64,000 bases of DNA from Beroe forskalii (lineage: Eukaryota; Ctenophora; Nuda; Beroida; Beroidae): contig WFMF01000003.1 in assembly GCA_011033025.1 (NCBI GenBank), positions 620,001-684,000 of the forward strand, written 5' to 3'. The notes below the pieces were generated by a model. It saw only the letters and a list, made by a program, of their open reading frames with translations, was not told the DNA's origin and made no database searches. Positions within the stretch are counted from its first letter, which is position 1, and every line of letters starts with the position of its first letter. The position numbers were made by a program, and so were the translations under genes. Below are positions 8,747 to 59,100 of the stretch, piece by piece.

Positions 8747-11700
8747 ATGCCTAACCCGGTCCATGGGACCCTCTCAAACACCTACCGCTCTGACCGGATG
8801 TTCACACCTCTCGCTCCCTCTCGTGACACCACCTCAAAATTCCTGTGAGTTTAGTGACACCACCTCGAAATTCCTGTGAGTTTAATCAGTGACACCACCT
8901 CAAAATTCCTGTGAGTTTAATCAGTGACACCACCTCAAAATTCCTGTGAGTTCAATTAGTGACACCACCTCAAAGTTCCTGTGAGTTTGACTAGTGACAC
9001 CACCTCACAATTCCTGTGAGTTTAACTAGTGACACCACCTCAAAGTTCCTGTGAGTTCACCCTCCTTGACACCACCCACAAAATTCCTGTCAGTTTAACT
9101 CGTGACACCACCTCAAAGTTCCTGTGAGTTTAACTCGTGACACCACCTCAAAATTCCTGTGAGTTTAACTCGTGACATTACCTCAAAATTCCTGAGTTTA
9201 ACTCGTGACACCTCAAAAATTCCTGTGAGTTTAACTAGTGACACCACCTCAAAGTTCCTGTGAGTTTAACTCGTGACACCACCTCAAAATTCCTGTGAGT
9301 TTAACTCGTGACACCACCTCAAAATTCCTGTGAGTTTAACTAGTGACACCACATCACAATTCCTTTGAGTTTAACTCGTGACACCACCTCAAAATTCCTG
9401 TGAGTTCACCTCGTGACACCACCTCAAAATTCCTGTGAGTTTAACTCGTGACATTACCTCAAAATTCCTGTGAGTTTAACTCGTGACACCACCTCAAAAT
9501 TCCTGTGAGTTTAACTAGTGACACAACCTCAAAATTCCTGTGAGTTTAACTCGTGACACCACCTCAAAGTTCCTGTGAGTTTAACTCGTGACACCACCTC
9601 AAAATTCCTGTGAGTTTAACTAGTGACACAACCTCAAAGTTCCTGTGAGTTTAACTAGTGACACCACCTCAAAATTCCTGTGAGTTTAACTCGTGACACC
9701 ACCTCAAAATTCCTGTGAGTTTAACTCGTGACACCACCTCAAAATTCCTGTGAGTTTAACTAGTGACACCTCAAAATTCCTGTGAGTTTAACTCGTGACA
9801 CCACCTCAAAATTCCTGTGAGTTTAACCTCAAAATTCCTGTGAGTTTAACTCGTGTGACACCACCTCAAAATTCCTGTGAGTTTAACTAGTGACACAACC
9901 TCAAAATTCCTGTGAGTTCACCTCGTGACACCGCCTCAAAATTCCTGTGAGTTTAACTCGTGGCACCACCTCAAAGTTCCTGTGAGTTTAACTCGTGACA
10001 CCACCTCAAAATTCCTGTTAGTTAAACTAGTGACACCACCTTAAAATTCCTGTGAGTTTAACTCGTGACATTACCTCAAAATTCCTGTGATTTAACTAGT
10101 GACACCACCTCAAAATTCCTGTGAGTTTAACTAGTGACACCACCTCAAAATTCCTGTGAGTTCACCTCGTGACACCACCTCAAAATTCCTGTGAGTTTAA
10201 CTAGTGACACAACCTCAAAATTCCTGTGAGTTTAACTCGTGTGACACCACCTCAAAATTCCTGTGAGTTTAACTAGTGACACAACCTCAAAATTCCTGTG
10301 AGTTTAACTCGTGACACCACCTCAAAATTCCTGTGAGTTTAACTAGTGACACCACCTCAAAATTCCTGTGAGTTTAACTCGTGACATCACCTCAAAATTC
10401 CTGTGAGTTTAACTAGTGACACCATATCACAATTCCTGTGAGTTCAACTCGTGGCACCACCTCAAAGTTCCTGTGAGTTTAACTCGTGACACCACCTCAA
10501 AATTCCTGTTAGTAAAACTTGTGACATTACCTCAAAATTCCTGTGAGTTTAACTCGCGACATTACCTCAAAATTCCTGTGATTTAACTAGTGACACCACC
10601 TCAAAATTCCTGTGAGTTTAACTAGTGACACCACCTCAAAATTCCTGTGAGTTTAACTAGTGACACCACCTCAAAATTCCTGTGAGTTTAACTAGTGACA
10701 CCACCTTAAAATTCCTGTGAGTTTAACTAGTGACACCACCTCAAAATTCCTGTGAGTTTAACTAGTGACACCACCTCAAAGTTCCTGTGAGTTTAACTAG
10801 TGACACCACCTCAAAGTTCCTGTGAGTTCAACTAGTGACACCACCTCAAAATTCCTGTTAGTTAAACTCGTGACACCACTTCGAAATCCCTCTCTCATTT
10901 GACTTCCCACTCAGGTACACCACCACTGGACCGGGCTTAGCTCGACCTCACGGTCAGAAGTGGGGTCGTGGAGATGACTACGGTCTCCACATCAACACCT
11001 CGGAGTTTGCTAGTATCAAGGGACACAGGCACTTCAGCACTGGATTCGAATACATCCCCAAGTAATGATCTCATATTGACCAACATTTCAATGCTTGTCT
11101 TGATTTTCCAATTTCATTTACAACCAACTTATATATAATTCTTTAGTTTCAAACTTACACGGTCGCTATAATAAGATTGGGAGGGGTATAATAACTATCG
11201 TATGGTATCCCTTTTCTGCTTCATTCATCCCTCCGCTCTCATTTCTCTTCCAGGCCTCCCCACAAAACCCAGTACCCACCTCTCCACCTCTCACTCCCCA
11301 ACCCACCTCCTTCATCTCTAACCACTTACTCTTCACCTCTCCCTATAGCTGTATTTTGCCCTCCCTCTTCACCCACCCACCCTTTCCCTTTCATAAGTTA
11401 CCCCACCAACTCAAAAATACCCGCTAACCCCTACACATCCACATCCTGTGTCACCATACCCCCCCCCCTTCACTGCTCCCAAGTCCCCACTCACTCCCCA
11501 CCCCTTGCAGGGACGTACCGCAGAACATCGTGTACAATCTGACCTCCTTGAAGCGGGACCCCACCCGTCCCCACGACCACCTGGTAGTGGAGCCCCAGAA
11601 GATCAACATCCAGGAGTCCCAGATCGGGCTGCCGTTCCCCCAGCAGCATGTGTACTACTCCCACCTGTCGCACAAGGATGTGTTCCCCCAGCACAAGCCA

Positions 11701-14700: not shown

Positions 14701-16237
14701 ACTAAAATAAATAAAAATTTGGAACCACACATTAGGTGTTTTATTGCTCATCGAAAAATATTTAAAAGCCCAAACGTATTAATTTTATTTTCCTCTTTTC
14801 AATGCAAGGTCAAATTACCGTTCAGAATTGTTATACAAAACACATCAACTTTTAATTTTGCTTTGAGCAGAAAGGGGGGGGGGGGTAAGTACTAATGAGC
14901 AAGGTTAGCAACATGGTGGGAAATTTTGAATTCTAATCAACTGCAGCCTTTTCACTTAGAGCTATACCTGACCACTTTTTCAGGTGAGTATGACGTGGAA
15001 CCTGTGCTAGCATTCAGCAGAGAGTTTAAACCGGATCTAAGGTCCTCCACAAAGGGAAATGCCTGGAGGAGCGAAACTCTCAACAGTGATTGGGTAGGTT
15101 GGGTGGGGCTTTACTGTGATTGGGTAGGTTGGGTGGGGCTTACCTAACTCTCAACAGTGATTGGGTAGGTTGGGTGGGGCTTTACTGTGATTGGGTAGGT
15201 TGGGTGGGCTTACCTAACTCTCAACAGTGATTGGGTAGGTTGGGTGGGGCTTTACTGTGATTGGGTAGGTTGGGTGGGAAGTATTTTCCTGGAGGCATTT
15301 TCCTGGGGGTATTTCCGGGGGGAGTACTTCCTTCCTGGGGGGAACCATGCCGGGTATTTTCTGTGGCGTATTTCCTAGAGAGTATTTCTTGTGGGTATTT
15401 CTTTTGGGTATTTCCAGAGGGTATTTCCTGGGGGGTATTTCTAGGGGGTTTTTCCTGGGGGTGGCTTTCCTAGAGGTATTTCCTGAGTGGGGACTTACTG
15501 TGGTGCTTTTCCTCGATCGGAATTGTTTTGGTGTTATTGCTCATGCTGTGGTGATGATGTGATATGGCAGATTGCTGAGAGGAAATTCTAGCTGGGCGTC
15601 TGCCTTTTAGTTTTAGAGTAATAACTTTTTGCGTGGTTCTAAGTAAAGCTAAAACTAAAAGTTGTCTCGTCTATGATTATTTTACTAATTCAGTCTCGCT
15701 TTTTTCAATTGAAAGTCTCAACTATTTGTAAGTGGGACGCTTAACATACTATTTTCTCTCCAGCGACCGGGGCCAGTGGAGCGACCAGCGGACCAACTGG
15801 TCACTGCGGAGACGTTTAACAAGCACAAGAAGTACGCTAAATCCCTGAAGGAGACCCACTATTCCCGAACACATGGGCAAGCTATAAAGGTACAATATAG
15901 TCAACATTATACCCCTCCCAAGCTTACTAGGGGTAGTTACAAGGTACTAGTCAACACTATCCAGCCTTTGATATGGTATCTTAAACGGGCGCTGATTTTT
16001 ACATGGCAGTTCATACAATCAATGTAATTTGAAATACTGAAACTTATAAACTTTCAATTTCAGGGGCTGCAGCCACCGTCAACTACAAACCTGAGCAACT
16101 TCAAACAGAGCTGGAAACACGACATACTGAAGTCGTTCAACGAGAATCACTGCGAACCCCTGCCTGACATCCGAACACCTCGAGAAAAGAAACACGTGTT
16201 CTATGGAGTTCATACCATGTCCATCGAACATGGCTAA
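8747..16237 (+). CDS. Gene A: unrecognised seven-exon protein
   Basis: Exons are 8747-8844, 10915-11061, 11511-11758, 13950-14007, 14984-15093, 15764-15889 and 16064-16237, each with AG acceptors and GT donors. The start ATG follows CCCGCC, a good Kozak context, and the stop is TAA. Joined phases agree except between exons 3 and 4: exon 3 ends in phase 1 at GTGAGC while exon 4 needs phase 0. Either an exon was missed or exon 3 uses the weaker donor GTGGCA after 11709. The product is about 280 residues, hydrophilic, rich in K, H, S and P, with no signal peptide or membrane segment. Exon 2 (residues 33-81) reads like short ciliary microtubule-associated proteins (HFSTGFEYIP), but that is only an impression and no family is assigned. 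Arrays sit at the ends of exons 1, 5 and 7. AATAAA is at 16407. Confidence 0.7.
8822..10880 (+). repeat. 35-bp minisatellite spanning exon 1 / intron 1 donor
   Basis: About 59 copies of a ~35-bp unit fill nearly all of intron 1. The unit is GACACCACCTCAAAATTCCT (the last 20 coding bases of exon 1) followed by GTGAGTTTAACTCGT or CTAGT (donor and first intron bases). The first copy is the true exon end, so every unit carries a strong GTGAGT donor. Many units also end in CTAG before the next TGACACC, a possible weak acceptor. Copies differ by single substitutions and a few short deletions. Confidence 0.95.
12250..13280. mobile_element. ~1.03-kb dispersed element, copy 1
   Basis: It begins TTTTTCCTGTTCCCAATCGC and ends near ACGGGAACAACGG, with TTTCCTGTTCCC inverted as GGGAACAGGAAA near the right end. 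A second copy lies at 17,731-18,993. In the matching place of the right arm (around 25,190) it is absent: GAGGCCTAAAACACAATC adjoins GCCCCAGAGC directly. Just beyond its right end a stem pairs GCGCCTGCA with TGCAGGCGC. There is no transposase frame. CATTT-like sequence flanks both ends in the filled site. Confidence 0.65.
15072..15290 (+). repeat. 41-bp minisatellite at exon 5 donor, left arm
   Basis: The unit CTCAACAGTGATTGG plus GTAGGTTGGGTGGGGCTTAC reproduces the last 15 coding bases of exon 5 and the 5' splice site. Three full units alternate with a shorter variant starting CTTTACTGTGATTGG. The homologous array in the right arm is about ten times longer. The following 15,280-15,490 is a degenerate run built on GGTATTTCC. 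Confidence 0.9.
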
Positions 16238-16345: not shown

Positions 16346-16406
16346 TATACCTAGTCCAACTCCATCGACCTTGGCTACCCAGCTGGAACAGAAACGTTCA
16401 AACTTC

Positions 16407-18993: not shown

Positions 18994-20119
18994 TGATTAA
19001 TAGTTTACAAAACGTTTTTCATGAAACGTTTCTTCCAAACCGCACGGATGCTGCTTAATAATACGTTACACATGGACAAAAATTCATTAAACGTTTCTTA
19101 GTGACGTTACTGGTTTCCTAAAAGAGTAAAAACTAAAAGCGTTTACTAGAGTACTAGACGTTTATTGAGGTTTGAACGTTTCTGTTCCAGCTGGGTAGCC
19201 AAGGTCGATGGAGTTGGACTCGGTAAAATAAACTAATTAGCCATGTTCGATGGATTAGAAATAAACCAATTAGCCATGTTCGATTGTTCGATGGACATGG
19301 TATAGACTAATTAGCCATGTTCGATGGACATGGTATGAACTCCATAAAACACGTGTTTCTTTTCTCGAGGTGTTCGGATGTCAGGCAGGGGTTCGCAGTG
19401 ATTCTCGTTGAACGACTTGAGTATGTCGTGTTTCCAGCTCTGTTTGAAGTTGCTCAGGTTTGTAGTTGACGGTGGCTGCAGCCCCTTTAATTGGAAGTTT
19501 ATAAGTTTCAGTATTTCAAATTACATTGGTTTTACGAACTGCCATGTAAAACTCAGCGCCCGTTTATAATACCATATCAAAGGCTGGATAGTGTTGACTA
19601 GTACCTTGTAAGTAGTAGTAACCTTAGTAAGCTTGGCAGGGGTATAATGTTGACTATATAGTACCTTGATAGCTTGACCATGTGTTCGGGAATAGTGTGT
19701 CTCCTTCAGGGATTTAGCGTATTTCTTGTGCTTGTTAAACGTCTCCGCAGTGACCAGTTGGTCCGCTGGTCGCTCCACTGGACCCGGTCGCTGGAGAGAA
19801 AATAGTTAAGCGTCCCACGTACAAATAGTTGACTGAATTAGTGAAATAATCATAGACGAGACAACTTTTAGTTTTAGTTTTTAGAACCACGCAAAACATC
19901 ATTACTCTAAAAGGCAGACGCCCAGCTAGAATTTTCTCTCAGCAATCTGCAATAATATCACATCTTCACCACAGCAATAGCACCAAAACAATTTCGATCA
20001 AGGAAAAGCACCACAATAAGTCCCCACTCCGAAAATACCCCCAGGAAATACCCCCAAGGAATACCCTCTAAGAAATACGCACCAGAAAATACCCCGCATG
20101 ATATACCCCCGGGGAAAGC

Positions 20120-22400
20120 CCACACAACCTACCCAATCACTGTTGAGAGTTAGGTAAGCCCCACCCAACCTACCCAATCACAGTAAAGCCCCACCCAACC
20201 TACCCAATCACTGTTGAGAGTTAGGTAAGCCCCACCCAACCTACCCAATCACAGTAAAACCCCACCCAACCTACCCAATCACTGTTGAGAGTTAGGTAAG
20301 CCCCAACCAACCTACCCAATCACTGTTGAGAGTTAGGTAAGCCCACACAACCTACCCAATCACTGTTGAGAGTTAGGTAAGCCCACCCAACCTACCCAAT
20401 CACTGTTGAGAGTTAGGTAAGCCCCACCCAACCTACCCAATCACAGTAAAGCCCCACCCAACCTACCCAATCACTGTTGAGAGTTAGGTAAGCCCCACAC
20501 AACCTACCCAATCACTGTTGAGAGTTAGGTAAGCCCACACAACCTACCCAATCACTGTTGAGAGTTAGGTAAGCCCCACCCAACCTACCCAATCACTGTT
20601 GAGAGTTAGGTAAGCCCACACAACCTACCCAATCACTGTTGAGAGTTAGTAAAGCCCCACACAACCTACCCAATCACTGTTGAGAGTTAGGTAAGCCCAC
20701 ACAACCTACCCAATCACTGTTGAGAGTTAGGTAAGCCCCACACAACCTACCAAATCACTGTTGAGAGTTAGTAAAGCCCACACAACCCACCCAATCACTG
20801 TTGAGAGTTAGGTAAGCCCACCCAACCTACCCAATCACTGTTGAGAGTTAGGTAAGCCCCACCCAACCTACCCAATCACTGTTGAGAGTTAGGTAAGCCC
20901 CACCCAACCTACCCAATCACTGTTGAGAGTTAGGTAAGCCCCACCCAACCTACCCAATCACTGTTGAGAGTTAGGTAAGCCCCACACAACCTACCCAATC
21001 ACTGTTGAGAGTTAGGTAAGCCCACACAACCTACCCAATCACTGTTGAGAGTTAGGTAAGCCCCACCCAACCTACCCAATCACTGTTGAGAGTTAGGTAA
21101 GCCCCACCCAACCTACCCAATCACTGTTGAGAGTTAGGTAAGCCCCACCCAACCTACCCAATCACTGTTGAGAGTTAGGTAAGCCCACACAACCTACCCA
21201 ATCACTGTTGAGAGTTAGTAAAGCCCACACAACCTACCCAATCACTGTTGAGAGTTAGGTAAGCCCCACCCAACCTACCCAATCACAGTAAAGCCCCACC
21301 CAACCTACCCAATCACTGTTGAGAGTTAGTAAAGCCCACACAACCTACCCAATCACTGTTGAGAGTTAGGTAAGCCCCACACAACCTACCCAATCACTGT
21401 TGAGAGTTAGGTAAGCCCACACAACCTACCCAATCACTGTTGAGAGTTAGGTAAGCCCCACCCAACCTACCCAATCACTGTTGAGAGTTAGGTAAGCCCC
21501 ACACAACCTACCCAATCACTGTTGAGAGTTAGGTAAGCCCCACCCAACCTACCCAATCACTGTTGAGAGTTAGGTAAGCCCCACTGTACCCAATCACTGT
21601 TGAGAGTTAGGTAAGCCCCACACAACCTACCCAATCACTGTTGAGAGTTAGGTAAGCCCCACACAACCTACCCAATCACTGTTGAGAGTTAGGTAAGCCC
21701 CACCCAACCTACCCAATCACTGTTGAGAGTTAGGTAAGCCCCCACCCAACCTACCCAATCACTGTTGAGAGTTAGGTAAGCCCCACACAACCTACCCAAT
21801 CACTGTTGAGAGTTAGGTAAGCCCACTAACCTACCCAATCACTGTTGAGAGTTAGGTAAACCCCACACTACCCAATCACTGTTGAGAGTTAGGTAAGCCC
21901 CACACAACCTACCCAATCACTGTTGAGAGTTAGGTAAGCCCCACAACCTACCCAATCACTGTTGAGAGTTAGGTAAGCCCCACCCAACCTACCCAATCAC
22001 TGTTGAGAGTTAGGTAAGCCCCACCAACCTACCCAATCACTGTTGAGAGTTAGGTAAGCCCCACCCAACCTACCCAATCACTGTTGAGAGTTAGGTAAGC
22101 CCCACCCAACCTACCCAATCACAGTAAAGCCCCACACAACATACCCAATCACAGTAAAGCCCACCCAACATACCCAATCACATTCACAGTAAAGCCCCAC
22201 CCAACCTACCCAATGACAGTAAAGCCCCACCCAACCTACCCAATCACTGTTGAGAGTTAGGTAAGCCCCACACAACCTACCCAATCACTGTTGAGAGTTA
22301 GGTAAGCCCCACCCAACCTACCCAATCACAGTAAGCCCCACCCAACCTACCCAATCACAGTAAAGCCCCACCCAACCTACCCAATCACTGTTGAGAGTTT
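20120..22400 (-). repeat. 41-bp minisatellite at exon 5 donor, expanded in right arm
   Basis: About 55 units on the minus strand, each with the exon-end bases CAACAGTGATTGG followed by GTAGGTTGGGTGGGGCTTAC. Shorter variants with CACAGTAAAGCCCC on the plus strand lack the TTGAGAG part. The array starts exactly at the donor of the exon 5 copy. The left arm has only about 0.2 kb of the same repeat, so this is expansion since the duplication, or contraction on the other side. Confidence 0.95.
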
Positions 22401-37400: not shown

Positions 37401-40400
37401 TTGGCGTTGTTCACTGACATGTTCTCCACAATTCCTTTGCCGGAACTGTCTAAAGCCCCTTCCTCCGTCAAACTCTCTATCTTAAAACTCATGTTCCTGG
37501 CGAATTGTTTTAGCTTTTTAGAAACGTAAGGCCGTGGACTGAAAGTCCCAACTCCTTATAATCCACTTGTCATTACATGACAGTCCAATTGACATCACCA
37601 TCAGTTTTTTGCATGTAAACTGTCCATTTTCTATTTATGCGTTGATACTACAAACAGGAACTAGCGGAATCAAGCCGAAATAAGCCGAAACAAGCGAAAC
37701 AACCCGAAACCAACCCCAACCCTAACCATAACCCGGGTTGGGTCGCTGGGTTCGGGTTGTTTTGCTTGTCTCAGCTAGTACCTGCTTGTAGTATTGACGC
37801 CTGTTTATGAGTTTATGATACAATCACAAAACCCTGATAGCCTGACTTCATTATTTTGAAATTATCAAAGTCCAACAATAATCGTTCAGCACCAATAAAA
37901 TGCACAGATGCAGTATCATGAACACTGACCTAGTCTCTTCAACATCTGAGATGCTACAAGACACGTTCTGTATCCTGAAGCTGTGATCTTTAGGTATGAC
38001 CGGGAAGATCTTCAATAACTTGGCAAAGAGCGGGTCCTTCTGTTTTGTGACTGATTCTAAGGGAGGGTGAGTGATCAAATTAGCAAAACTTCGGTTAATA
38101 GGATTTTAAGAGTTCACAAACCAAGTCTAAAACGTGCATCTATGTATCTATTAAATTATTATAAAAGAATAATGACTTAATTAATTCATACAGAGGGAAA
38201 GTGACGAGATGAGGTCTATTAAATGCAACCCATCATCCTTATATCAAGTAAAAGATAATTCAGAGACACTGAAGATACACAACAATGGCATGGTTATGAG
38301 CTAGACATTTGGCAGATACCTGCCAATTCAATAGGTACCTATTGAATTGGCAGGTACCTATTGAATTGGCAGGTGCCTATTGAGTTGGCAGGTACCTATT
38401 GAATTGGCAGGTACCTATTGAATTGGCAGGTACCTATTGAATTGGCAGGTACCTATTGAATTGGCAGGTACCTATTGAATTGGCAGGTACCTATTGAATT
38501 GGCAGGTACCTATTGAATTGGCAGGTACCTATTGAATTGGCAGGTACCTATTGAATTGGCAGGTACCTATTGAATTGGCAGGTACCTATTGAACTGGCAG
38601 GTGAATTGGCAGGAATTGGCAGGTACCTATTGAATTGGCAGGTACCTATTGAATTGGCAGGTACCTATTGAATTGGCAGGTACCTATTGAATTGGCAGGT
38701 ACCTATTGAATTGGCAGGTACCTATTGAATTGGCAGGTACCTATTGAATTGGCAGGTACCTATTGAATTGGCAGGTACCTATTGAATTGGCAGGTACCTA
38801 TTGAATTGGCAGGTACCTATTGAATTGGCAGGTACCTATTGAATTGGCAGGTACCTATTGAATTGGCAGGTACCTATTGAATTGGCAGGTACCTATTGAA
38901 TTGGCAGGTACCTATTGAATTGGCAGGTACCTATTGAATTGGCAGGTACCTATTGAATTGGCAGGTATCTATTGAATTGGCAGGTACCTATTGAATTGGC
39001 AGGTACCTATTGAATTGGCAGGTACCTATTGAATTGGCAGGTACCTATTGAATTGGCAGGTACCTATTGAATTGGCAGGTACCTATTGAATTGGCAGGTA
39101 CCTATTGAAGTGGCAGATACCTATTGAATTGGCAGGTGCCTATTGAATTGGCAGGTACCTATTGAATTGGCAGGTACCTATTGAATTGGCAGGTACCTAT
39201 TGAATTGGCAGGTACCTATTGAATTGGCAGGTACCTATTGAGTTAGAGGGTGGAGTGGTGGTTTTCATGTGAGAAATAACATCCAGCAATCCCTCGTAAA
39301 CCATTACTGACAGCATGTCCCCTGATACTTTCACTGTTTCGATCTGAATCCAATTAGTAAGGTAGTCTTGTCAAGAAGTCAAATCGATCTCGTCAAAAAT
39401 TCAATGTACTCTCATCACTCTCATCACTAAAAAATGAAAGTACTCTCACTAAAAAGTCAAATTACTCTCGCCAAATAGTCAGAGTACTCTCCTCAAAAAT
39501 TAAATGCTATTCACGAAATCAATATCAAAGACAGTATCGTGCCTTTTCAATTGCTAACAATAAATCCGCTATCTATTGAAGTATTTATCAGATATCAAGT
39601 GTATGACGTAAGTCTTACAGTTTCGAAGTGATACGAAAGGAGAAGGTCTATCTTGACTCCCATGGAGGTGTTAAGGTAGATTGTCTTGTCGTCCTTAACC
39701 TTCAATTCTATGTGATCCAATGCGAAGTGGGAGGATACAAAGCTGAAAGAGTGTCAGGGGATACAAAGCTGAAAGAGTGTCAGGGGATACACAGCTGAAA
39801 GAGTGTTAGGGGATACAAAGCTTAAAGAGTGTCAGGGGATACAAAGCTGAAAGAGTGTCAGGGGATACAAAGCTGAAAGAGTGTCAGGGGATACAAAGCT
39901 GAAAGAGTGTAAGGGGAAACAAAGCTGAAAGAGTGTCAGGGGATACAAAGCTGAAAGAGTGTCAGGGGATACAAAGCTGAAAGAGTGTAAGGGGAAACAA
40001 AGCTGAAAGAGTGTCAGGGGATACAAAGCTGAAAGAGTGTCAGGGGATACAAAGCTGAAAGAGTGTCAGGGGATACAAAGCTGAAAGAGTGTAAGGGAAA
40101 CAAAGCTGAAAGAGTGTAAGGGGATACAAAGCTGAAAGAGTGTCAGGGGATACAAAGCTGAAAGAGTGTAAGGGGAAACAAAGCTGAAAAGAGTGTCAGG
40201 GGATACAAAGCTGAAAGAGTGTCAGGGGATACAAAGCTGAAAGAGTGTAAGGGGAAACAAAGCTGAAAGAGTGTCAGGGGATACAAAGCTGAAAGAGTGT
40301 CAGGGGATACAAAGCTGAAAGAGTGTCAATCATTTGAAGAAACTTGATATTAAATTGTAATCTATAAAACACAGTACAAAGTTGCAGTGATTCGATCAAC

Positions 40401-42982: not shown

Positions 42983-42999
42983 CACTGCAACAAGGTAAT

Positions 43000-44189: not shown

Positions 44190-47100
44190 TCAGGAGAACA
44201 TCTCCACAAGTGTCACGTAAGTAGCTAGAACCCCGAATACGGAACCTCCTATTGCCAGCAGCCACATTCCAGCTTTCTGCCAAACACTCATCTGAAGAAA
44301 GAGACTTATAACCGCCCTGGCCAGGGCGGTATCTCATCTGCAGGGGAGAGAGACTTATATCCGCCCTGGCCAGGGCGGTATCTCATCTGCAGGGGGAGGG
44401 AGACTTATAACCACCCTGGCCAGGGCGGTATCTCATCTGCAGGGGAGAGAGACTTATAACCACCCTGGCCAGGGCGGTATCTCATCTGAAGGGAGAGAGA
44501 CTTATTGCCGCCCTGGCCAGGGCGGTATCTCATCTGCAGAGAGAGAGAGACTTATAACCACCCTGGCCAGGGCGGTATCTCATCTGCAGGGGAGAGAGAT
44601 TTATTCCCGCCCTGGGGCCAGCAGGGGAGAGGGACTTATCTCATCGGTATCATCTGCAGGGGGAGAGACTTATTACCGCCCTGGCCAGGGCGGTATCTCA
44701 TCTGCAGGGAGAGAGAGACTTACTGCCGCCCTGGCCAGGGCGGTATCTCATCTGCAGGGGGAGAGAGACTTACTGCCGCCCTGGCCAGGGCGGTATCTCA
44801 TCTGCAGGGGAGAGAGACTTATAACCGCCCTGGCCAGGGCGGTATCTCATCTGCAGGGGGAGAGAGACTTATTCCCGCCCTGGCCAGGGCGGTATCTCAT
44901 CTGAAGGGGGAGAGAGACTTACTGCCGCCCTGGCCAGGGCGGTATCTCATCTGCAGGGGGAGAGAGACTTATATCCGCCCTGGCCAGGGCGGTATCTCAT
45001 CTGCATTAATGTTTGTCTGATAATGCCCTGGCCAGGGCGGTATCTCATCTGCAGGGAGAGAGGGCTATTACCGCCCTGGCCAGGGCGGTATCTCATCTGC
45101 AGGGGAGAGATATAACCGCCCTGGCCAGGGCGGTATCTCATCTGCAGGGGAGAGAATGCCCTGGCCAGGGCGGTATCTCATCTGCAGGATTAGAACCGCC
45201 CTGCCAGGGCGGTATCTCACCTGCAGGGGGAGAGAGACTTATTCCCGCCCTGGCCAGGGCGGTATCTCATCTGCAGGGAGAGAGACTTATAACCGCCCTG
45301 GCCAGGGCGGTATCTCATCTGAAGGGAAAGAGAGACTTATATCCGCCCTGGCCAGGGCGGTATCTCATCTGAAGATAAGAGAGAGAGAGGCTTATAACCG
45401 CCCTGGCCAGGGCGGTATCTCATCTGCAGGGGAGAGAGACTTGTAACCGCCCTGGCCAGGGCGGTATCTCACCTGCAGGGGGAGAGAGACTTGTATTCCG
45501 CCCTGCCCTGGCAGGGGCGGTATCTCATCTGGGAAAGAGAGCTTAACCCGCCCTGGCCAGGGCGGTATCTCATCTGCAGGGAGAGAGACTTATTCCCGCC
45601 CTGGCCAGGGCGGTATCTCATCTGCAGGGGAGAGAGACTTATTGCCACCCTGGCCAGGGCGGTATCTCATCTGCAGGGGAGATAGACTTACTGCCGCCCT
45701 GGCCAGGGCGGTATCTCATCTGCAGGGGGAGAGAGACTTACTGCCACCCTGGCCAGGGCGGTATCTCATCTGCAGGGGGAGAGAGACTTATTCCCGCCCT
45801 GGCCAGGGCGGTATCTCATCTGCAGGGGGAGAGAGAGACTTATTACCGCCCTGGCCAGGGCGGTAACCCCCCGCGGTAATAAAGAGAGACTTACTGTTTC
45901 CCCGCCTGGCCAGGGCGGTAACCCCCCGCGGTACTGTTTACTACTTCAACTACAAACGAACCTATATTTTTTCGTCAGACAGTTTATATTATCTGAGATA
46001 TTTAACTTTCTACTGACAGTGGGGTGTTTTCTTTCTAGGGAACAGCATCTATTTGAATTTTTGAAGGTCAATTAAAAAGTTGTCAAGCTTTTAGTAAGTT
46101 AGTATAGTAGTATAGAAGTGCTTTGATAAAGTCGAAAAGGAATCCCGGTTGAGAGCATGATCTACTCAAGCTCCCAAGTACTCATTACAGTAAGCATAAT
46201 ACTATAATAGGACAATGTGCATTGGAATGTTTCCAGGAAAAATAAAGTTGACCGGGTTGAAACCCAAGCAAACAAAGAATTTAGCCCAAGAATCAGAAGG
46301 GTGGGGCGTGGGTTTCCAAGTTTCCAACTAACTTGGTGCTTGAAGCAGGCGAGATAGCAAGCCGTGGGGAATATGAATTGCATGAGGGTACCACTAAAAG
46401 CACCAGTCAGAGATACCATGTGTCCGAATGAGATACCAGACGCCTGAACAAAATGAGATGAAAGTTATTTATAAGAGATAATCGTGCCTCATTTCTAATT
46501 GATGTAAACTATACTATCGATTAAAAACCAATAATCGGGAACTAGAAAGATAACCAGGAACCAGAAAGCCAGAAGAATACTGCAACACGATATCCTGCAA
46601 CATGATACCATTACTTCACCACACTCTTCTTCCATATTGATAATAATGTATTCGACAAGAATAACTTGATGGGCTCATTTCCGAAGAAAGATTGGTTACA
46701 GTAAAATAATAAGTGAGCATGAAGTGCCGACTGATTATTTTCATTTGTATGGTGAGCCGTTAGGCGAACCACACGAAGTACTTTAACTTATTTTTATCGA
46801 CTCCATCCTCCCCCCATCAAATATATCTTCGTATCCTGATTGTCTGATTATGAATCCTGTTCAGTCTTGTTTGAAATAATCCGTGTGCTAATTGACCATT
46901 TACTAAAGCATGTTTATTATTGGGGCAAGTAATGAAGAAAGACTGTCCAATAAAAACCCTGATGATATATACTCACAGCAAGTACAAGTCCAAAGACTGT
47001 TACACCTGCACGTAGAATGTTCTGTTTCCAATGCAGGTTATCTTGGGATATCCTTCCAGGCTTGAACAACTCCTGGAATAATCTCTCAGTGTATCGAGTG

Positions 47101-50100
47101 TATCGGATATGCCGGTATGTGGTGGGTAATCCCACTTAATTGAAATGAAATAATTTCTACATGCCCTTTGACTTAAGGACTTACTTAATCATTATTAACA
47201 ATCATGCAGATTGAATCTTATAATAATATCGGTATGTGGTTGGGTAATCCCACATAATTGAATTGAAATGAAATGAAAATAATTACTACATAGACACGCG
47301 CTTATCGGTCTATAATTTTAGATGACAAGCCCTATAGGCGTAAGCCCGAGGGTTTCATTTTGGGATACTTCCCGAGCCGTAGGGAGGATGGGTGGGTTAA
47401 ACCGAGCCCGTAGGGCGGACCCGATCAGGCAGGTGTCTATATATTATAGACCCGCATGAAAACGTCAGAGGGTTCTATAAGTCTATAACACTATAAGTAC
47501 ATCAGAACACGGCACACAGTTCTCTAAATAAGTAAATAGTAGCACATTGAAAGACGACAATATCTTGATGAGTTGCTAGTGTGATATTGTGATAATGCTC
47601 CTTCTACTCTTCTAACCTTTTCAAGGATTTCCAGGACAACAATGAGTTGCACAGAAACACTCATCCCGATTCCGAAGACCAGACTGAAGGGATAGAAATC
47701 GTTAGGTTTGCAGGGGACTGCAGATCAATGCAGCAGTGTTAAATGACAAATGTACCTTAGTTATTCGTAACTTCATACTATCAAATTCAGTTCTCATTAT
47801 AATATTATGTAAACTTTATTAAAACTGGAACAGGAATACTTTATGGAATTTAATATTTTAATATCTGAGGACATGAAGTATTGTGTGAGGCAACCCATTG
47901 CACACTTTTTCCAGGCTCCCTTAGATTTTTTCCCTTAGATTTTTCCCAGGGGGCTTTGGAAAAATAAGGGGGCTTAAATTTCCATGAGCAAATTTTCATT
48001 TTTCAGAGCCCTAAATTCGCAAAGAAATACAACGAAAAACATACTTTTCGAGTTTTTGTTTGTTTTATTCTGAAAGCAGTGAATATCAAAATATCAAAAT
48101 TTCAAAGTTTCTGCTTGATTTAACTTTATATTACACGTCTTTTTTGATGATAAAATTTTTGTGAATATCCTTCTTAGTCCCTAATAACAAACGTCATATT
48201 GGCTATTTTCTGGGCTACGATAGGACATTTTCGTATTTTCCAGGGCACTGGGCACCCACGTGAAAGAGAGCAATTGCCCCCAAAGTTCATAAGTTTGCCA
48301 CCACTTTACCATATTGTGTTTAAAACTTCAGTTAACTCTGCCTTGAGTTTACTTTGCCTTAAGCTTACCATTTAGTTCACCATACCTAAGTTTGCAATTT
48401 CAGTTAACACTGTAATCGGTCACCGAATAACTATCAGTTTATCATTTATTATTATGTTTTACACTTTTAATAAAGTAAGTCGATTGAATAAAGTTAGTTA
48501 TTTAAATTAAGTTCACCAACTAAATTAAGTTCACCAACTAAATTAAGTTCACCAACTAAATTAAGTTCACCAACTAAATTAAGTTCACCAACGAAAACAA
48601 GCACCTGGGAGGAAGGTAGTGTACATGAGGGTGGCACACACCAGAACGAAAACAAGCACCTGGGAGGAAGGTAGTGTACATGAGGGTGTGGCACACACCA
48701 GAACGAAAACAAGCACCTGGGAGGAAGGTAGTGTACATGAGGGTGGCACACACCAGAACGAAAACAAGCACCTGGGAGGAAGGTAGTGTACATGAGGGTG
48801 GCACACACCAGAACGAAAACAAGCACCTGGGAGGAAGGTAGTGTACATGAGGGTGGCACACACCAGAACGAAAACAAGCACCTGGGAGGAAGGTAGTGTA
48901 CATGAGGGTGGCACACACCAGAACGAAAACAAGCACCTGGGAGGAAGGTAGTGTACATGAGGGTGGCACACACCAGAACGAAAACAAGCACCTGGGAGGA
49001 AGGTAGTGTACATGAGGGTGGCACACACCAGAACGAAAACAAGCACCTGGGAGGAAGGTAGTGTACATGAGGGTGGCACACACCAGAACGAAAACAAGCA
49101 CCTGGGAGGTAGTGTACATGAGGGTGGCACACACCAGAACGAAAACAAGCACCTGGGAGGTAGTGTACATGAGGGTGGCACAGAACGAAAACAAGCACCT
49201 GGGAGGAAGGTAGTGTACATGAGGGTGGCACACACCAGAACGAAAACAAGCACCTGGGAGGTAGGCATGAGGGTGGCACACACCAGAACGAAAACAAGCA
49301 CCTGGGAGGAAGGTAGTGTACATGAGGGTGGCACACACCAGAACGAAAACAAGCACCTGGGAGGTAGTGTACATGAGGGTGGCACACACCAGAACGAAAA
49401 CAAGCACCTGGGAGGAAGGTAGTGTACATGAGGGTGGCACACACCAGAACGAAAACAAGCACCTGGGAGGAAGGTAGTGTACATGAGGGTGGCACACACC
49501 AGAACGAAAACAAGCACCTGGGAGGAAGGTAGTGTACATGAGGGTGGCACACACCAGAACGAAAACAAGCACCTGGGAGGAAGGTAGTGTACATGAGGGT
49601 GGCACACACCAGAACGAAAACAAGCACCTGGGAGGAAGGTAGTGTACATGAGGGTGGCACACACGAAAGAACGAAAACAAGCACCTGGGAGGAAGGTAGT
49701 GTACATGAGGGTGGCACACCAGAACGAAAACAAGCACCTGGGAGGAAGGTAGTGTACATGAGGGTGGCACACACCAGAACGAAAAACAAGCACCTGGGAG
49801 GAAGGTAGTGTACATGAGGGTGGCACACACCAGAACGAAAACAAGCACCTGGGAGGTAGTGTACATGAGGGTGGCACACCAGAACGAAAACAAGGGGGAG
49901 GAAGGTAGTGTACATGAGGGTGGCACACACCAGAACGAAAACAAGCACCTGGGAGGAAGGTAGTGTACATGAGGGTGGCACACACCAGAACGAAAACAAG
50001 CACCTGGGAGGAAGGTAGTGTACATGAGGGTGGCACACACCAGAACGAAAACAAGCACCTGGGAGGAAGGTAGTGTACATGAGGGTGGCACACACCAGAA

Positions 50101-53100
50101 CGAAAACAAGCACCTGGGAGGAAGGTAGTGTACATGAGGGTGGCACACACCAGAACGAAAACAAGCACCTGGGAGGAAGGTAGTGTACATGAGGGGGTGG
50201 CACACAGAACGAAAACAAGCACCTGGGAGAACGAGGGTGGCACACAGAACGAAAACAAGCACCTGGGAGGAAGGTAGTGTACATGAGGGTGGCACACACC
50301 AGAACGAAAAACAAGCACCTGGGAGGAAGGTAGTGTACATGAGGGTGGCACACACCAGAACGAAAACAAGCACCTGGGAGGAAGGTAGTGTACATGAGGG
50401 TGGCACACACCAGAACGAAAACAAGCACCTGGGAGGAAGGTAGTGTACATGAGGGTGGCACACACACCAGAACGAAAACAAGCACCTGGGAGGAAGGTAG
50501 TGTACATGAGGGTGGCACACACCAGAACGAAAACAAGCACCTGGGAGGAAGGTAGTGTACATGAGGGTGGCACACACCAGAACGAAAACAAGCACCTGGG
50601 ACGAAAAACAAGAACAAAACAAGCACCTGGGAGGAAGGTACATGAGGGTGGCACACACCAGAACGAAAACAAGCACCTGGGAAGGTGGCACATGAGGGTG
50701 GCACACAGAACGAAAACAAGCACCTGGGAAAAAGGTACATGAGGGTGGCACAGGGAACGAGGAAAACAAGCACCTGGGGCAACCAGAACGAAAACAAGAC
50801 CTGGGTGGCATGAGGGTGGCACACCAGAACGAAAACAAGCACCTGGGAGGAAGGTAGGGTGTACATGAGGGTGGCACACACCAGAACGAAAAAGCACCTG
50901 GGAGGAAGGTAGTGTACATGAGGGTGGCACACACCAGAACGAAAACAAGCACCTGGGAGGAAGGTAGTGTACATGAGGGGCACACACCAGAACGAAAACA
51001 AGCACCTGGGAGGAAGGTAGTGTACATGAGGGTGGCACACCACCAGAACGAAAACAAGCACCTGGGAGGAAGGTAGTGTACATGAGGGTGGCACACACCA
51101 GAACGAAAACAAGCACCTGGGAGGAAGGTAGTGTACATGAGGGTGGCACACAGAACGAAAACAAACCTGGGAAAACAAGGGTGGCACCACCAGAACGAAA
51201 ACAAGCACCTGGGAGGAAGGTGGTGTACATGAGGGTGGCACACACCAGAACGAAAAACAAGCACCTGGGAGAAGGTAGTGTACATGAGGGTGGCACACGA
51301 ACGAAAACAAGCACCTGGGAGAAGGTAGTGTACATGAGGGTGGCACACACCAGAACGAAAACAAGCACCTGGGAGAAAGGGGGTACATGGGCACACCTGA
51401 ACGAAAACAAGCACCTGGGAGGAAGGTAGTGTACATGAGGGTGGCACACACCAGAACGAAAACAAGCACCTGGGAGGAAGGGGGGGGTACATGAGGGTGG
51501 CACACACCAGAACGAAAACAAGCACCTGGGAGGTAGTGTACATGAGGGTGGCACACACCAGAACGAAAACAAGCACCTGGGAGGAAGGTAGTGTACATGA
51601 GGGTGGCACACACCAGAACGAAAACAAGCACCTGGGAGGAAGGTAGTGTACATGAGGGTGGCACACACCAGAACGAAAACAAGCACCTGGGAGGAAGGTA
51701 GTGTACATGAGGGTGGCACACACCAGAACGAAAACAAGCACCTGGGAGGAAGGGGGAGGGTGGCACACACCAGAACGAAAACAAGCACCTGGGAGTGAGA
51801 AAGGTAGTGTACATGAGGGTGGCACCAGAACGAAAACAAGCACCTGGGAGGAAGGTAGTGTACATGAGGGTGGCACACACCAGAACGAAAAACAAGCACC
51901 TGGGAGGAAGGTAGTGTACATGAGGGTGGCACACACCAGAACGAAAACAAGCACCTGGGAGGAAGGTAGTGTACATGAGGGTGGCACACCAGAACGAAAA
52001 ACAAGCACCTGGGAGGAAGGTAGTGTACATGAGGGTGGCACACACCAGAACGAAAACAAGCACCTGGGAGGAAGGTAGTGTACATGAGGGTGGCACACAC
52101 CAGAACGAAAACAAGCACCTGGGAGGAAGGGGTGTACATGAGGGTGGCACACACCAGAACGAAAACAAGCACCTGGGAGAAAGGTAGTGTACATGAGGGT
52201 GGCACACACCAGAACGAAAACAAGCACCTGGGAGGAAGGTAGTGTACATGAGGGTGGCACACACCAGAACGAAAACAAGCACCTGGGAGGTAGGTAGAGT
52301 ACATGAGGGTGGCACACACCAGAACGAAAACAAGCACCTGGGAGGAAGGTAGTGTACATGAGGGTGGCACACCAGAACGAAAACAAGCACCTGGGAGGAA
52401 GGTAGTGTACATGAGGGTGGCACACACCAGAACGAAAACAAGCACCTGGGAGGAAGGTAGTGTACATGAGGGTGGCACACACCAGAACGAAAACAAGCAC
52501 CTGGGAGAAAGGTAGTGTACATGAGGGTGGCACACACCAGAACGAAAACAAGCACCTGGGAGGAAGGTACATGAGGGTGGCACACACCAGAACGAAAACA
52601 AGCACCTGGGAGGAAGGTAGTGTACATGAGGGTGGCACACACCAGAACGAAAACAAGCACCTGGGAGGAAGGTAGTGTACATGAGGGTGGCACACACCAG
52701 AACGAAAACAAGCACCTGGGAGGAAGGTAGTGTACATGAGGGTGGCACACACCAGAACGAAAACAAGCACCTGGGAGAAAGGTAGTGTACATGAGGGTGG
52801 CACACACCAGAACGAAAACAAGCACCTGGGAGGAAGGTAGTGTACATGAGGGTGGCACACACCAGAACGAAAACAAGCACCTGGGAGGAAGGTAGTGTAC
52901 ATGAGGGGGCACACCCAGAACGAAAACAAGCACCTGGGAGGAAGGTAGTGTACATGAGGGTGGCAAAAAACAAGCACCTGGGAGGAAGGTAGTGTACATG
53001 AGGGTGGCACACACCAGAACGAAAACAAGCACCTGGGAGGAAGGTAGTGTACATGAGGGTGGCACACACCAGAACGAAAACAAGCACCTGGGGACATGAG

Positions 53101-56100
53101 GGTGGCACACCAGAACGAAAACAAGCACCTGGGAGGTAGTGTACATGAGGGTGGCACACACCAGAACGAAAACAAGCACCTGGGAGGAAGGTAGTGTACA
53201 TGAGGGTGGCACACACCAGAACGAAAACAAGCACCTGGGAGGAAGGTAGTGTACATGAGGGTGGCACACACCAGAACGAAAACAAGCACCTGGGAGGAAG
53301 GTAGTGTACATGAGGGTGGCACACACCAGAACGAAAACAAGCACCTGGGAGGAAGGTAGTGTACATGAGGGTGGCACACCAGAACGAAAACAAGCACCTG
53401 GGAGAAGTAGTGTACATGAGGGTGGCACACACCAGAACGAAAACAAGCACCTGGGAGGAAGGTAGTGTACAGGGTGGCACACACCAGAACGAAAACAAGC
53501 ACCTGGGAGGAAGGTAGTGTACATGAGGGTGGCACACACCAGAACGAAAACAAGCACCTGGGAGGAAGACATGAGGGTGGCACACACCAGAACGAAAACA
53601 AGGACCTGGGAGGAAGGTAGTGTACATGAGGGTGGCACACACCAGAACGAAAACAAGCACCTGGGAGGAAGGTAGTGTACATGAGGGTGGCACACACCAG
53701 AACGAAAACAAGCACCTGGGAGAAAGGTGTACATGAGGGTGGCACACACCAGAACGAAAACAAGCACCTGGGAGGAAGGGGGCCGTATTATGTAGTGTAC
53801 ATGAGGGTGGCACACACCAGAACGAAAACAAGCACCTGGGAGAAAGGTAGTGTACATGAGGGTGGCACACACCAGAACGAAAACAAGCACCTGGGAGGAA
53901 GGTAGTGTACATGAGGGTGGCACACACCAGAACGAAAACAAGCACCTGGGAGGAAGGTAGTGTACATGAGGGTGGCACACACCAGAACGAAAACAAGCAC
54001 CTGGGAGGAAGGTAGTGTACATGAGGGTGGCACACACACCAGAACGAAAACAAGCACCTGGGAGGAAGGTAGTGTACATGAGGGTGGCACACACCAGAAC
54101 GAAAACAAGCACCTGGAAGGTAGTGTACATGAGGGTGGCACACACCAGAACGAAAACAAGCACCTGGGAGGAAGGTAGTGTACATGAGGGTGGCACACAC
54201 CAGAACGAAAACAAGCACCTGGGAGGAAGGTAGTGTACATGAGGGTGGCACACACCAGAACGAAAAACAAGCACCTGGGAGGAAGGTAGTGTACATGAGG
54301 GTGGCACACACCAGAACGAAAACAAGCACCTGGGAGGAAGGTAGTGTACATGAACGAAAACACACACCAGAACGAAAAAACAGAAAACAAGCACCTGGGA
54401 GAAAGGTAGTGTACATGAGGGTGGCACACACCAGAACGAAAACAAGCACCTGGGAGGAAGGTAGTGTACATGAGGGTGGCACACACCAGAACGAAAACAA
54501 GCACCTGGGAGGAAGGTAGTGTACATGAGGGTGGCACACACCAGAACGAAAACAAGCACCTGGGAGGAAGGTAGTGTACATGAGGGTGGCACACACCAGA
54601 ACGAAAACAAGCACCTGGGAGGAAGGTAGTGTACATGAGGGTGGCACACACCAGAACGAAAACAAGCACCTGGGAGGAAGGTAGTGTACATGAGGGTGGC
54701 ACACACCAGAACGAAAACAAGCACCTGGGAGGAAGGTAGTGTACATGAGGGTGGCACACACCAGAACGAAAACAAGCACCTGGGAGGAAGGGGCCGTATT
54801 ATTAGTTTACCAAGTCTTTCACACTGCAGAAGATGGAAGCTGGAAAGATATAAACGTAACTACCTCATTACATAAAATTAAGGTTGTCAAGTAACTAAGG
54901 TTTGGTTAAATTTTGTTCGACTTTTCGTAATTGCCTAAATTTCACGAAAATTTGTCAAGTAAGCTTTCCTGGAGTTATAGCTGTGGTATTCTGAAACGTC
55001 CAAACCCTTCCATTCATTAATTAACAATTTCAACTATAATTCGTTTTCCGCGCACAGTAACAGACGGGATAACCTACAACTGGGATAAGTATAAGGGTAC
55101 ACAATAAAATCATTCAGGTAGTTTTTCCCAGTATGACGTCACATTGTTTTCAAAATTAAGGTAACTTAAAAGGTAGGTGTATTTAAAATAAGGTTCGTAA
55201 AAAATTTACGAGCACTTTATTAAGGTGAAATTCGACTCGATCACCTTAATTAAGTTATTCCTTAATTTCATGTAATAAGGTACTTCAAACTTTCGAACAC
55301 CTGATGCACTCTACCAGCTAACCAGTACGCTATAGGGGGGAGTTTCACTGTCCCAATTGTCCCAATTGTCCCTGTCCCAATTTACTATTTTTTGAGTTTG
55401 GGACTGGTTTTTGGGACAATTGGGACAACTGGGACATTTGGGACAATTGGGACAAACAAAAAGTTGAAAAAATGAGTCATTTTTCCTTTTTTACATTGAT
55501 ACAAGTTTTTCTATCATTGACATGAAAGTTATATTCATACTACTATACTAAATACATATTTTGGTTGTGTTTGTTTGCAGTGGTTAAGTGTTCCCACATC
55601 CCTAGCCAAAAAACAAAACTATTTGAGCTCTAGTTGTCTCTGTCACTGTTGTCCCAATTGTCCCATTTGTCCCAAATGTCCCATTTGTCCCAGTCTGCAT
55701 TCACTTTTTTGAGTCCCATTTGTTCCATTTTCTCTCTCCCAATTGTCCCATTTGTCCCAAATGTCCCAATTTTCCGAGTCCACATTCACTTTTTTGAGTC
55801 ACATTTGTTCCATTTTTACTGTCCCAATTGTCCCATTTGTCCCAAATGTCCCATTTGTCCCAATTGTCCCTGTCCCAATCCACTTTTTCTTGAGTTTGGG
55901 ACAATTGGGACAGTGACACCCCCCCCCCCGCTATACAAAAGACCCATTTTCTATCTTTATTGTTTTACAATCTTAGACACACATCCACAGTATAGAATGA
56001 TGCCTGACTCACGGTGTAAGTCACAGAGTACTGACACACTACCTACCCTGTTGAAAAGGTGGGGTTTCTTCATGCTGCACTCGGTTGGTATAACGACACC

Positions 56101-59100
56101 AGCTCCCTCGAATGCAAAGGCAGCCATCCCGAACATCAGGGGCAATGTCCTGCAGGACGCTTTAGTTGGTATGTTGGTATGCAGGACGTTTTAGTTGGTA
56201 TGTTGGTATGCAGGAAGTTTTAGACCCGTTCTAGACAGGGAATTTTGAGGAGCTATTGCTCGAGCAATTGCTCGAGCAAGCCTGTCTAGAATGGGGTTTT
56301 TCGCTTGCCCGAGCTATTGCTCGAGCAATAGCTCGGGTAATAGTCGGAGGTATTACCCGAGCAATTGCTCGAGCAATAGCTCGGGCAATCATTCCTGTCT
56401 AGAAAACACTCTTACCCGGGCAATAGCTCTCACTGATACACGTGACCCTGTCACGTGGGTCGAGTCATGACACAGCGTGAAATAGGAAGCTGATTCATAG
56501 CTGATGGCAGTGACGCAGGACGCTATACCTGTTTTGTTATTGTAACAATATACCTTCCTTATGCACGTGATATTAGAGATGCGCTGACAGGAGCTATAGC
56601 TCGAGCAACCCTGTCTAGAAAGATTTTCGAATCCAATGATTGCTCGGGTAAGCGTGGAGGGTCATCCTGTCTAGAAAGTAACGCTTGCCCGAACAATTGT
56701 TCGAGCAATAGCTCCTTGAAGCTCCTGTCTAGAACAGGTCTAAGTTGGTATGTTGGTATGCAGGAAGTTTTAGTTGGTATGTTGGTATGCAGGAAGTTTT
56801 AGTTGGTATGTTGGTATGCAGGACGTTTTAGTTGGTATGTTGGTATGCAGGACGTGGGTATTGGTATGTTGGTATGCAGTACGTTGGTATGTTGGTATGT
56901 TGGTATGCAGTACGTTTTACTTGGTATGTTGGTATGCAGGACGTTTAGTTGGTATGTTGGTATGCAGGACGTTTAGTTGGTATGTTGGTATGCAGTACGT
57001 TTTAGTTGGTATGTTGGTATGCAGTACGTTGGTATGTTGGTATGTTGGTATGCAGGACGCTTTAGTTGGTATGTTGGTATGCAGGACGTTTTACTTGGTA
57101 TGTTGGTATGCAGGACGTTTAGTTGGTATGTTGGTATGCAGTACGTTTTAGTTGGTATGTTGGTATGCAGGACGTTTAGTTGGTATGTTGGTATGCAGTA
57201 CGTTTTAGTTGGTATGTTGGTATGCAGTACGTTGGTATGTTGGTATGTTGGTATGCAGTACGTTTTAGTTGGTATGTTGGTATGCAGTAGGTTTTAGTTG
57301 GTATGTTGGTATGCAGGACGTTTTAGTTGGTATGTTGGTATGCAGTACGTTTTAGTTGGTATGTTGGTATGCAGGACGTTTTAGTTAGTATGTTGGTATG
57401 CAGTAGGTTTTAGTTGGTATGTTGGTATGCAGTACGTTTTAGTTGGTATGTTGGTATGCAGGACGTGTTAGTTGGTATGTTGGTATGCAGTACGTTTTAG
57501 TTGGTATGTTGGTATGCAGTACGTTTTAGTTGGTATGTTGGTATGCAGGACGTTTTAGTTGGTATGTTGGTATGCAGGACGTGGGTGTTTTAAGAGCAGA
57601 CCTATATCTCATGGGCTGGAATATCCCATGTTCAAAAGCACAATGAGACACACATTCAAATATGAAACCATCAAATTATTAAATTAAATGTATTGATTAT
57701 CACGGTGTTTTTAGGAATTGCCAAATCTCTTCAAAAGTTCAAAGAAATGCTACAGGGTGGTTGATAAGTCCATACATCTATTATATATACACAGTTCATT
57801 GAATTAATTGTCAAGTTAATTTAAATGTACTAAAGTTGTTACTGTACCTCCAAGGCGGTAACACATCCACTTGGAAGGCTACCTCTGGAACTACTTGATG
57901 AGAGATCTGCAGACACCCAATAAAGGCAGTCACCACAATACCTGCCGATATAAGGACCATAGTTAGTTTCATTGGCCTAACTACTGTCAACCTTCAACCA
58001 ATGGATCACGAGTTTTACAGCATCAAAAACTCTAACTCATAGCTCACTCGGCGCTGCTTCAAACCACCAAACCACTAATGTCAAGCTACATTTATTAATG
58101 TTTTTAATGCGAATAAACACACTTGACTCACCTCCAATTATGGTTAACTCGGCGAGAAAGGATATCACTCCGATATGTTTCATTCTGAAATTCGTTCATT
58201 TTATGAACTGTAGCTATCAAATTATTGGTAATTCAATAAATTTGTCAGTATTCTCTTCTTGGCTGGGCGAAGTGGAATGTGCTTTTTTGAAATTCAATTA
58301 ATTTCGTCGAACCTTCAATGACATCAGAAAATTCACCTTTGACTGTACAAAGTAGTGTTGTAAACGTTAAGTTTAAAACTTTACAACACAAGCCGAGATC
58401 TTAATTTGATTTATACTTTACAATGCTAATATCTGGTTTAAGTAGGTAAGTAAGTAGGGATGATATTTACCCAAAAAACATTATAAACATAATATTAAAT
58501 GTAAAATTTGAATTTGAAATAAAAACAACATACGATCGAATCCAGCTGAGACCGATGTAGAAGGGAGTGATGAAAACCATCAAGGCCCAGCGAGACGCTG
58601 TTGAAGATAGGATGGGGAAGTAGGGTGTCAAGTTCTCAGAAACAAACACTGCAAAATGAAGCTCTGTTTAGTTGTTTCACCTCAATTCATTAAGGAAGCG
58701 ATAAGGAAGCGATTGAGGAGCTAACCTAAAATTTGGCATTTAAAATAATTGGCAATTTTGTCATCTGCTTTACAAACTTATAAGTGTGAAATTTTCGTGT
58801 TAATTGAAGAACAAACATCATAATGATAAAGTTACAGTGTAAACTGAATTTGTAAACTTTTTGTTGAACTTACCACCTCACCAAAAATTGAAAATTTATG
58901 GGAGAGTGCTGGTGAACTTACTGAGTAAACTGGAATGAGACTTATGGTGAAATTAAAGTGCAAACTAAGATTGTAAACTTAGAAACTTAAGGTAAAGTGG
59001 AAGTAAAAATATGGTTTAAACTTAAGTATAAACTGTAAAGTTATGGTAATCTTATGGTAAATGCCAGCAGATAACAAAGTTGCGAATAATATTCAAATGT

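Follow-up and report, generated by a model that had tools for sequence, protein, structure and literature searches.

Mirage-type minisatellites at exon-intron boundaries of a ctenophore, with junction spanning mostly as expected by chance

Here we describe minisatellite arrays that multiply exon-intron boundaries in a 64-kb stretch (hereafter the window) of a 2.13-Mb contig, WFMF01000003.1, from the 216-Mb genome of the ctenophore Beroe forskalii. The arrays belong to a class that is already known, the mirages of amphioxus. Strict spanning of junctions is mostly what chance predicts, with arrays lying just inside the intron, mainly at acceptors, and perhaps long arrays over-represented. The arrays are probably mirage-type minisatellites that arose by tandem duplication with random breakpoints, in which copies are tolerated because the exon-proximal splice site is kept. 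An earlier note on this DNA had listed ten junction arrays of 2 to about 112 copies in three genes. Tandem Repeats Finder (TRF) located arrays at all ten places, with copy numbers from 2.0 to 116. In eight of them the terminal coding bases and the splice site lie inside the array: at two exons of an SPMIP4-like gene, exons 2, 4, 5, 6 and 8 of a BLTP2-like gene, and exon 10 of an amino-acid transporter (Table 1). At transporter exons 9 and 14, by contrast, the arrays abut the acceptor, and by TRF they contain no exon-end bases.

Exon edges of the transporter were determined with a purpose-written spliced aligner and a homologous transporter, and those of the SPMIP4-like and BLTP2-like genes from frame and splice signals; Pfam was also used. 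Outside the exon-10 array, the transporter introns were recovered with GT-AG ends; within it the aligner sets artificial exons, part of the transporter gene being absent. The SPMIP4-like exon-1 array repeats a unit of about 35 bp some 60 times, and the unit ends in ...AAATTCCT/GTGAGTTT, where the slash marks the junction. The array at 15075-15278 lies at exon 4 by the present count, and we take it to be the one assigned to exon 5 of "gene A" in the earlier note. The unit at BLTP2-like exon 6, ...TTCAATAG/GTACCT, includes the donor, and that at exon 5, CCTGACACTCTTTCAG/CTTTGTATCC, comprises the acceptor plus ten coding bases. Defined by a unit made of exon-end bases plus splice site, the mirage type is found in eight of the ten named arrays and in the IMPDH, EF-hand and dynein cases described below, and both 5' and 3' boundaries are open to duplication, as the donor and acceptor cases indicate. 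The transporter exon-9 array, which has no coding bases, ends with the A of the acceptor dinucleotide (56151). For the exon-14 array, the TRF edge (44300) is 8 bp from the junction, and the unit contains CAG/ATGAG, which resembles the real acceptor. Two observations concern the surroundings of these arrays. An insert at 56224-56742 splits the exon-9 array; it is palindrome-rich with inverted ends and looks like a miniature inverted-repeat transposable element. A lone diverged copy of the BLTP2-like exon-8 unit, with the donor AAAG/GTACAGG, sits at 26689-26740, 5.4 kb beyond its array, with an open reading frame (ORF) that has a DSL domain and a 75-bp coding repeat in between.

The breakpoints of the duplications appear to ignore the splice site, because the exonic fraction of the units is evenly distributed between 0.08 and 0.97 (18 arrays, a sample that excludes transporter exons 10 and 14 and the FN3-like and L028 arrays introduced below; Kolmogorov-Smirnov test against a uniform distribution, P=0.75). 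Conservation of the splice dinucleotide (GT or AG) between copies does not exceed that of the rest of the unit (mean rank 0.55 over 12 arrays, P=0.13). Unit length is a multiple of three in 3 of 16 cases, with no preference, so the copies need not be translated. The same SPMIP4-like donor array measures 204 bp in one paralogue and 2.27 kb in an inverted copy, while the flanks remain 94.7% (upstream) and 85.7% (downstream) identical; arrays of this kind therefore probably change length fast, a change seen here between paralogous copies rather than alleles.

Junction arrays are not confined to the window. Three genes in its flanks carry them: IMPDH (Pfam E=2.8e-116), with a 16-bp unit at a donor; an EF-hand gene, whose acceptor array repeats a 91-bp unit 18.8 times; and an FN3-like gene, labelled by eye and without a match in a Pfam scan, where a 47-bp donor array occurs twice, in duplicated copies. 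All three come from a scan of array edges for coding edges, which is biased towards arrays and had several training exons in the wrong frame. Because of this bias, IMPDH is kept apart or used in pooled counts only; of its 9 arrays, 2 cross a junction, where the summed expectation is about 1.2. Dynein heavy-chain loci provide an array-independent sample, as they were picked by Pfam search (80 exon matches) and not by arrays; 12 loci were analysed by spliced alignment with a long single-exon dynein as the reference. Spanning arrays number about 8 per 174 junctions in this sample. Locus L027 has three junction arrays, L034 two, and L033 and L035 one each. The exon end at the L030 array (8013) is uncertain, and a donor array at 115-255 of L028 spans its junction by inspection and stands outside the counts. 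In contrast to their multi-exon paralogues, two dynein heavy-chain genes have frames that run uninterrupted for 3010 and 3715 codons.

It had been argued that randomly placed arrays would fall mostly in intron interiors. Comparing interior with junction is unfit here, because a tandem duplication need only touch an intron to be harmless, and the fair comparison is among duplications that touch the intron. If l is the intron length without arrays but with one unit added, a duplication of unit length P overlaps a junction with probability p=2(P-1)/(l+P-1). In the 87 dynein introns the median length without arrays is 210 bp (quartiles 157-323), and given this median about a fifth of intron-touching duplications are expected to overlap a junction, which weakens the argument. 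The 87 introns were chosen by agreement or flank identity from two alignments made for each locus, the first of which gave 142 introns, and 12 arrays in unmodelled stretches, the L028 donor array among them, were dropped. On this basis, 8 of 31 dynein arrays span a junction, with 6.9 expected (P=0.37). One array, at 5774 of L027, sat in a mis-modelled intron; with expectations recomputed for corrected introns, 6.2 are expected (P=0.25). Leaving out this array and the uncertain one in L030 gives 6 of 29 against 5.5, and the first filter (68 introns) had given 4 of 24 against 4.41. The strict excess in dyneins is thus 1.2- to 1.4-fold and non-significant. If arrays are instead scored by a match of the unit to the junction (the homology definition), the dynein count is 9 of 31 against 6.46 (P=0.14). 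Among the window genes, which are the discovery set, 5 of 17 arrays span a junction where 3.15 are expected (P=0.17), or 6 of 19 where 3.9 are expected once SPMIP4-like introns 1-3 are added (P=0.14); the BLTP2-like exon-8 array and the later SPMIP4-like array enter no count, as their far intron end could not be located. Dynein and window together give 14 of 50 with corrected introns (10.1 expected, P=0.09). The earlier proposal that only duplications preserving a splice site survive fits the uniform exonic share, the unconserved dinucleotide and this near-neutral spanning count.

The favoured mechanism would begin with ordinary tandem duplication or slippage, making copies of 10-130 bp with breakpoints unrelated to the splice site. 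Where a copy crosses a boundary, the exon-proximal site (the first donor or the last acceptor) would still join the exons, and the extra copies would turn intronic; selection would tolerate such a duplication because the exons are joined correctly and the additional copies become intron. An equivalent duplication within an exon would be removed unless it kept the frame. Once established, the array would grow and shrink as any minisatellite does. Boundary-crossing arrays would be common because introns are short and arrays are plentiful: over 264 kb around the window, TRF arrays (n=213) make up 23.4% of the sequence. For the genome of another ctenophore, Hormiphora, the figure reported with the same program is 13% (PMC8527503).

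Several observations weigh against this explanation as a complete account. Within 15 bp of a junction lie 16 of the 31 dynein arrays, with 10.3 expected (P=0.009), or 9.5 with corrected introns (P=0.004), so that an excess over chance remains for proximity, and strict spanning shows none that is significant. Among dynein arrays of at least 9 copies, 3 of 7 span a junction against 1.44 (P=0.09), or 0.76 after correction (P=0.02); pooled with the window and corrected, the long arrays give 8 of 15 against 3.3 (P=0.002). By the homology definition, dynein, window and IMPDH arrays together reach 16 of 57 against 10.5 (P=0.03). These pooled figures contain the discovery set, many thresholds were tried, and the samples are small. 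In addition, at acceptor arrays the splicing machinery would have to select the final one among as many as 116 acceptors, which may not be a simple task, and correct splicing from the exon-proximal copy is deduced from genomic DNA; that this copy is the one used, and that the others are harmless, is presumed.

The same counts would be explained if splice junctions promoted the start or growth of tandem duplications, so that junction arrays are enriched beyond what survival gives. Transcription, R-loops, splicing or the repeat-prone polypyrimidine tract of acceptors are routes by which this might occur. Besides the excesses just given, 5 of the 7 dynein arrays of at least 9 copies lie within 15 bp of a junction (1.24-2.08 expected, P=0.001-0.005), and 6 of the 8 abutting dynein arrays are on the acceptor side by coordinates. 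The long-array excess is strengthened by the corrected introns, which raises the odds of seeding. Strong donor motifs were found in 3 of 30 flank arrays of at least 4 copies, with 0.3 expected, two of the three being duplicates of one array; among flank arrays with fewer copies the count is 2 of 55 against 0.5 (P=0.09). However, at the top threshold no window array has such a motif (0 of 17 with at least 4 copies, 0 of 17 with fewer), and we do not take the donor-motif enrichment as main evidence. The strict dynein count near its expectation and the lack of a fixed breakpoint phase relative to the splice site also argue against seeding, and TRF trims array edges, so spanning arrays may score as abutting. 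Seeding near junctions, at acceptors above all, is possible but less likely than tolerated random duplication; the earlier suggestion that junctions act as seeds gains some weight from near and long arrays, without a significant excess of strict spanning in the dynein set. That junctions in this ctenophore, and acceptors in particular, are preferred sites of minisatellite birth or growth, at 2-4 times the neutral rate for long arrays, seems to us rather unlikely. If true, a genome-wide class of splice-site arrays would drive intron growth, and such arrays may act as rearrangement breakpoints.

Two further explanations concern the origin of the arrays, and a third their reality. In the Rogers model, introns are reportedly gained through tandem genomic duplication, and the earlier note had raised it as a source of these arrays, which would then be new introns made from duplicated exonic AGGT. 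As in that model, exon sequence with AG/GT is tandemly duplicated here; many units hold AG/GT, and 6 of the 11 array-bearing dynein intron positions have no counterpart in other loci. The same idea was raised for amphioxus globins (PMC3087553). However, a new intron of this kind should have the unit at both ends, and each of the 8 dynein arrays that span a junction covers one intron end only. Moreover, for 5 of the 11 positions a second dynein locus has an intron of the same phase no more than one residue away. Since these five positions are shared with a paralogue, the introns there are probably older than their arrays; this comparison of intron novelty covers dynein paralogues only. Unlike the Rogers case, the ctenophore arrays occupy one intron end, and some of their introns have array-free paralogous counterparts. 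At residue 193, the L034 intron has arrays and the L027 intron has none by TRF; at residue 405, L026 has an abutting array and L028 and L029 have none. Intron gain is thus a very improbable origin. An introner or transposon, in which an inserted mobile unit carries the splice sites, appears more improbable still. The exon-14 unit does contain a palindrome, CCGCCCTGGCCAGGGCGG, with similar sequence near 32030 and 43810, but 17 of 18 junction units have no match outside their own array (E<=0.001 over about 0.36 Mb, a search that very short units may escape), and the remaining unit matches only the lone copy described above, 5.4 kb past its array. Locus-private units speak against a mobile element, as does the match of the units to their own exon edges, and dispersed homologous copies at many loci, by which introners are recognised, were not found in the same 0.36 Mb.

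Arrays made or misplaced by the assembler would account for the fact that genes do not continue past the two longest arrays (32115-37402 and 48590-54791). The rest of transporter exon 10 is missing after its 6.2-kb array: a search of the assembly at E<=0.001 recovered no match to residues from about 294 to 331. For the BLTP2/Hobbit gene, C-terminal exons are placed on another contig, of 23 kb (C1076:10310-14106, part of it in L036), and the parts of the assembly that were looked at did not contain its middle. The gene breaks may represent misassembly or real breakage, both of which fit the sequence, and misjoins at the longest arrays could affect their copy numbers. Against an artefact, the copies have diverged, the arrays occur in several genes and contigs, and the cases with 2-5 copies are only about 70-190 bp long. 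We strongly doubt that the arrays themselves are products of assembly, and tolerated random duplication remains the preferred explanation.

The class of splice-junction minisatellites, taken in the earlier note as potentially new, is already known from the mirages of amphioxus. Mirages repeat exon-intron boundaries in tandem; their unit measures 150-160 bp in the globin genes and 10-72 bp in Adh3 (PMC3087553), and a further paper adds PGBD5 and troponin C (PMC3902484). Like the mirages described in these accounts, the ctenophore repeats of 10-160 bp span boundaries at either end, and many copies hold AG/GT; copy number, unstable in mirages, differs in the ctenophore between paralogous copies. 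The ctenophore arrays differ in their host lineage, in reaching 116 copies or 6.2 kb, in affecting several genes per 64-kb window, and in being measured here against a neutral expectation. For the Adh3 and globin mirages, splicing is described as normal and undisturbed (PMC3087553), a feature of amphioxus mirages, whereas the ctenophore arrays are known from genomic DNA alone. In the polyubiquitin gene UBC, tandem units likewise carry a splice site, as dual-specific splice-site repeats whose expansions are argued to be less harmful since they can be spliced out (PMC10809524). There, as described, the units are coding and the intron is a whole number of units long; in contrast, the ctenophore introns also hold unrelated sequence, and few units (the 3 of 16 above) are multiples of three. 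Literature searches of open-licence papers listed no report of junction-copying arrays in ctenophores.

The three genes of the window are identified with different confidence. The transporter protein is 68% identical to proteins of Bolinopsis microptera and Mnemiopsis leidyi. The SPMIP4-like gene matches PF15093 at 69.4 bits (cut-off 27), the score rising from 63.0 bits once the array-bearing later exon is added. The BLTP2 label is tentative because the N-terminal exons of this BLTP2/Hobbit-like gene score 16 bits against PF10344, below the cut-off of 24.5; no full-length BLTP2 relative came up in a search at E<=0.001. The SPMIP4-like gene is duplicated as an inverted (palindromic) copy, the two copies, at 11464-16577 and 18994-26010 of the window, being about 86-98% identical in pieces, and the sequence of the second copy differs where the array-bearing exon starts. 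Two similar ORFs in opposite orientation lie at 28517-31513 of the window and in the flank 4.5-8.5 kb to its left (L003), each near a 75-bp in-frame repeat. The ORF at 28517-31513 has a Pfam DSL match, and its L003 counterpart was judged by eye.

Table 1 Junction arrays and genes, in window coordinates unless a contig is given.
Feature	Position	Strand	Basis
Donor-spanning array, SPMIP4-like exon 1	8821..10891	+	TRF, sequence, Pfam PF15093
Donor-spanning array, later SPMIP4-like exon, ...ACAGTGATTGG/GTAGGT	15075..15278	+	TRF, sequence, PF15093 score
Same donor array in the inverted SPMIP4-like paralogue, grown to 2.27 kb	20119..22388	-	TRF, sequence
Donor-spanning array, BLTP2-like exon 8: 65-bp unit, about 82 copies, 63 exonic bases per unit	32115..37402	-	
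Donor-spanning array, BLTP2-like exon 6: 19-bp unit x 47.7	38333..39241	-	
Acceptor-spanning array, BLTP2-like exon 5: 26-bp unit x 22.9	39733..40328	-	
Donor-spanning two-copy duplication (63 bp), BLTP2-like exon 4	40508..40633	-	
Donor-spanning array, BLTP2-like exon 2: 51-bp unit x 17, by chance open in frame	41470..42352	-	
Array abutting the acceptor of the last transporter exon (14): 50-bp unit x 31.6	44300..45865	-	
Acceptor-spanning array, transporter exon 10: 55-bp unit, 116 copies	48590..54791	-	
29-bp array (2.5 + 28.9 copies) at transporter exon 9	56151..57582	-	
BLTP2/Hobbit-like gene, exons 1-8 (tentative)	37340..42986	-	Frame, splice signals, Pfam
Aa_trans (PF01490) amino-acid transporter gene	44193..60882	-	Pfam, spliced alignment to homologue
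Uninterrupted-frame dynein heavy-chain genes	C534:78781-79992 and C1024:1426554-1427768		

A phenomenon of the lancelet is now seen in an animal of a very distant lineage, a ctenophore, and the array-independent dynein genes indicate that junction arrays can be common there. The simple quantitative null used here, a unit of length P overlapping the end of an intron of length l, sets a bar for any claim of a splice-junction hotspot. An annotated ctenophore genome would allow a direct test of whether tandem duplication is seeded by splicing or transcription. The closeness of the arrays to splice sites is mostly, perhaps not all, such as harmless random duplication in short introns gives.

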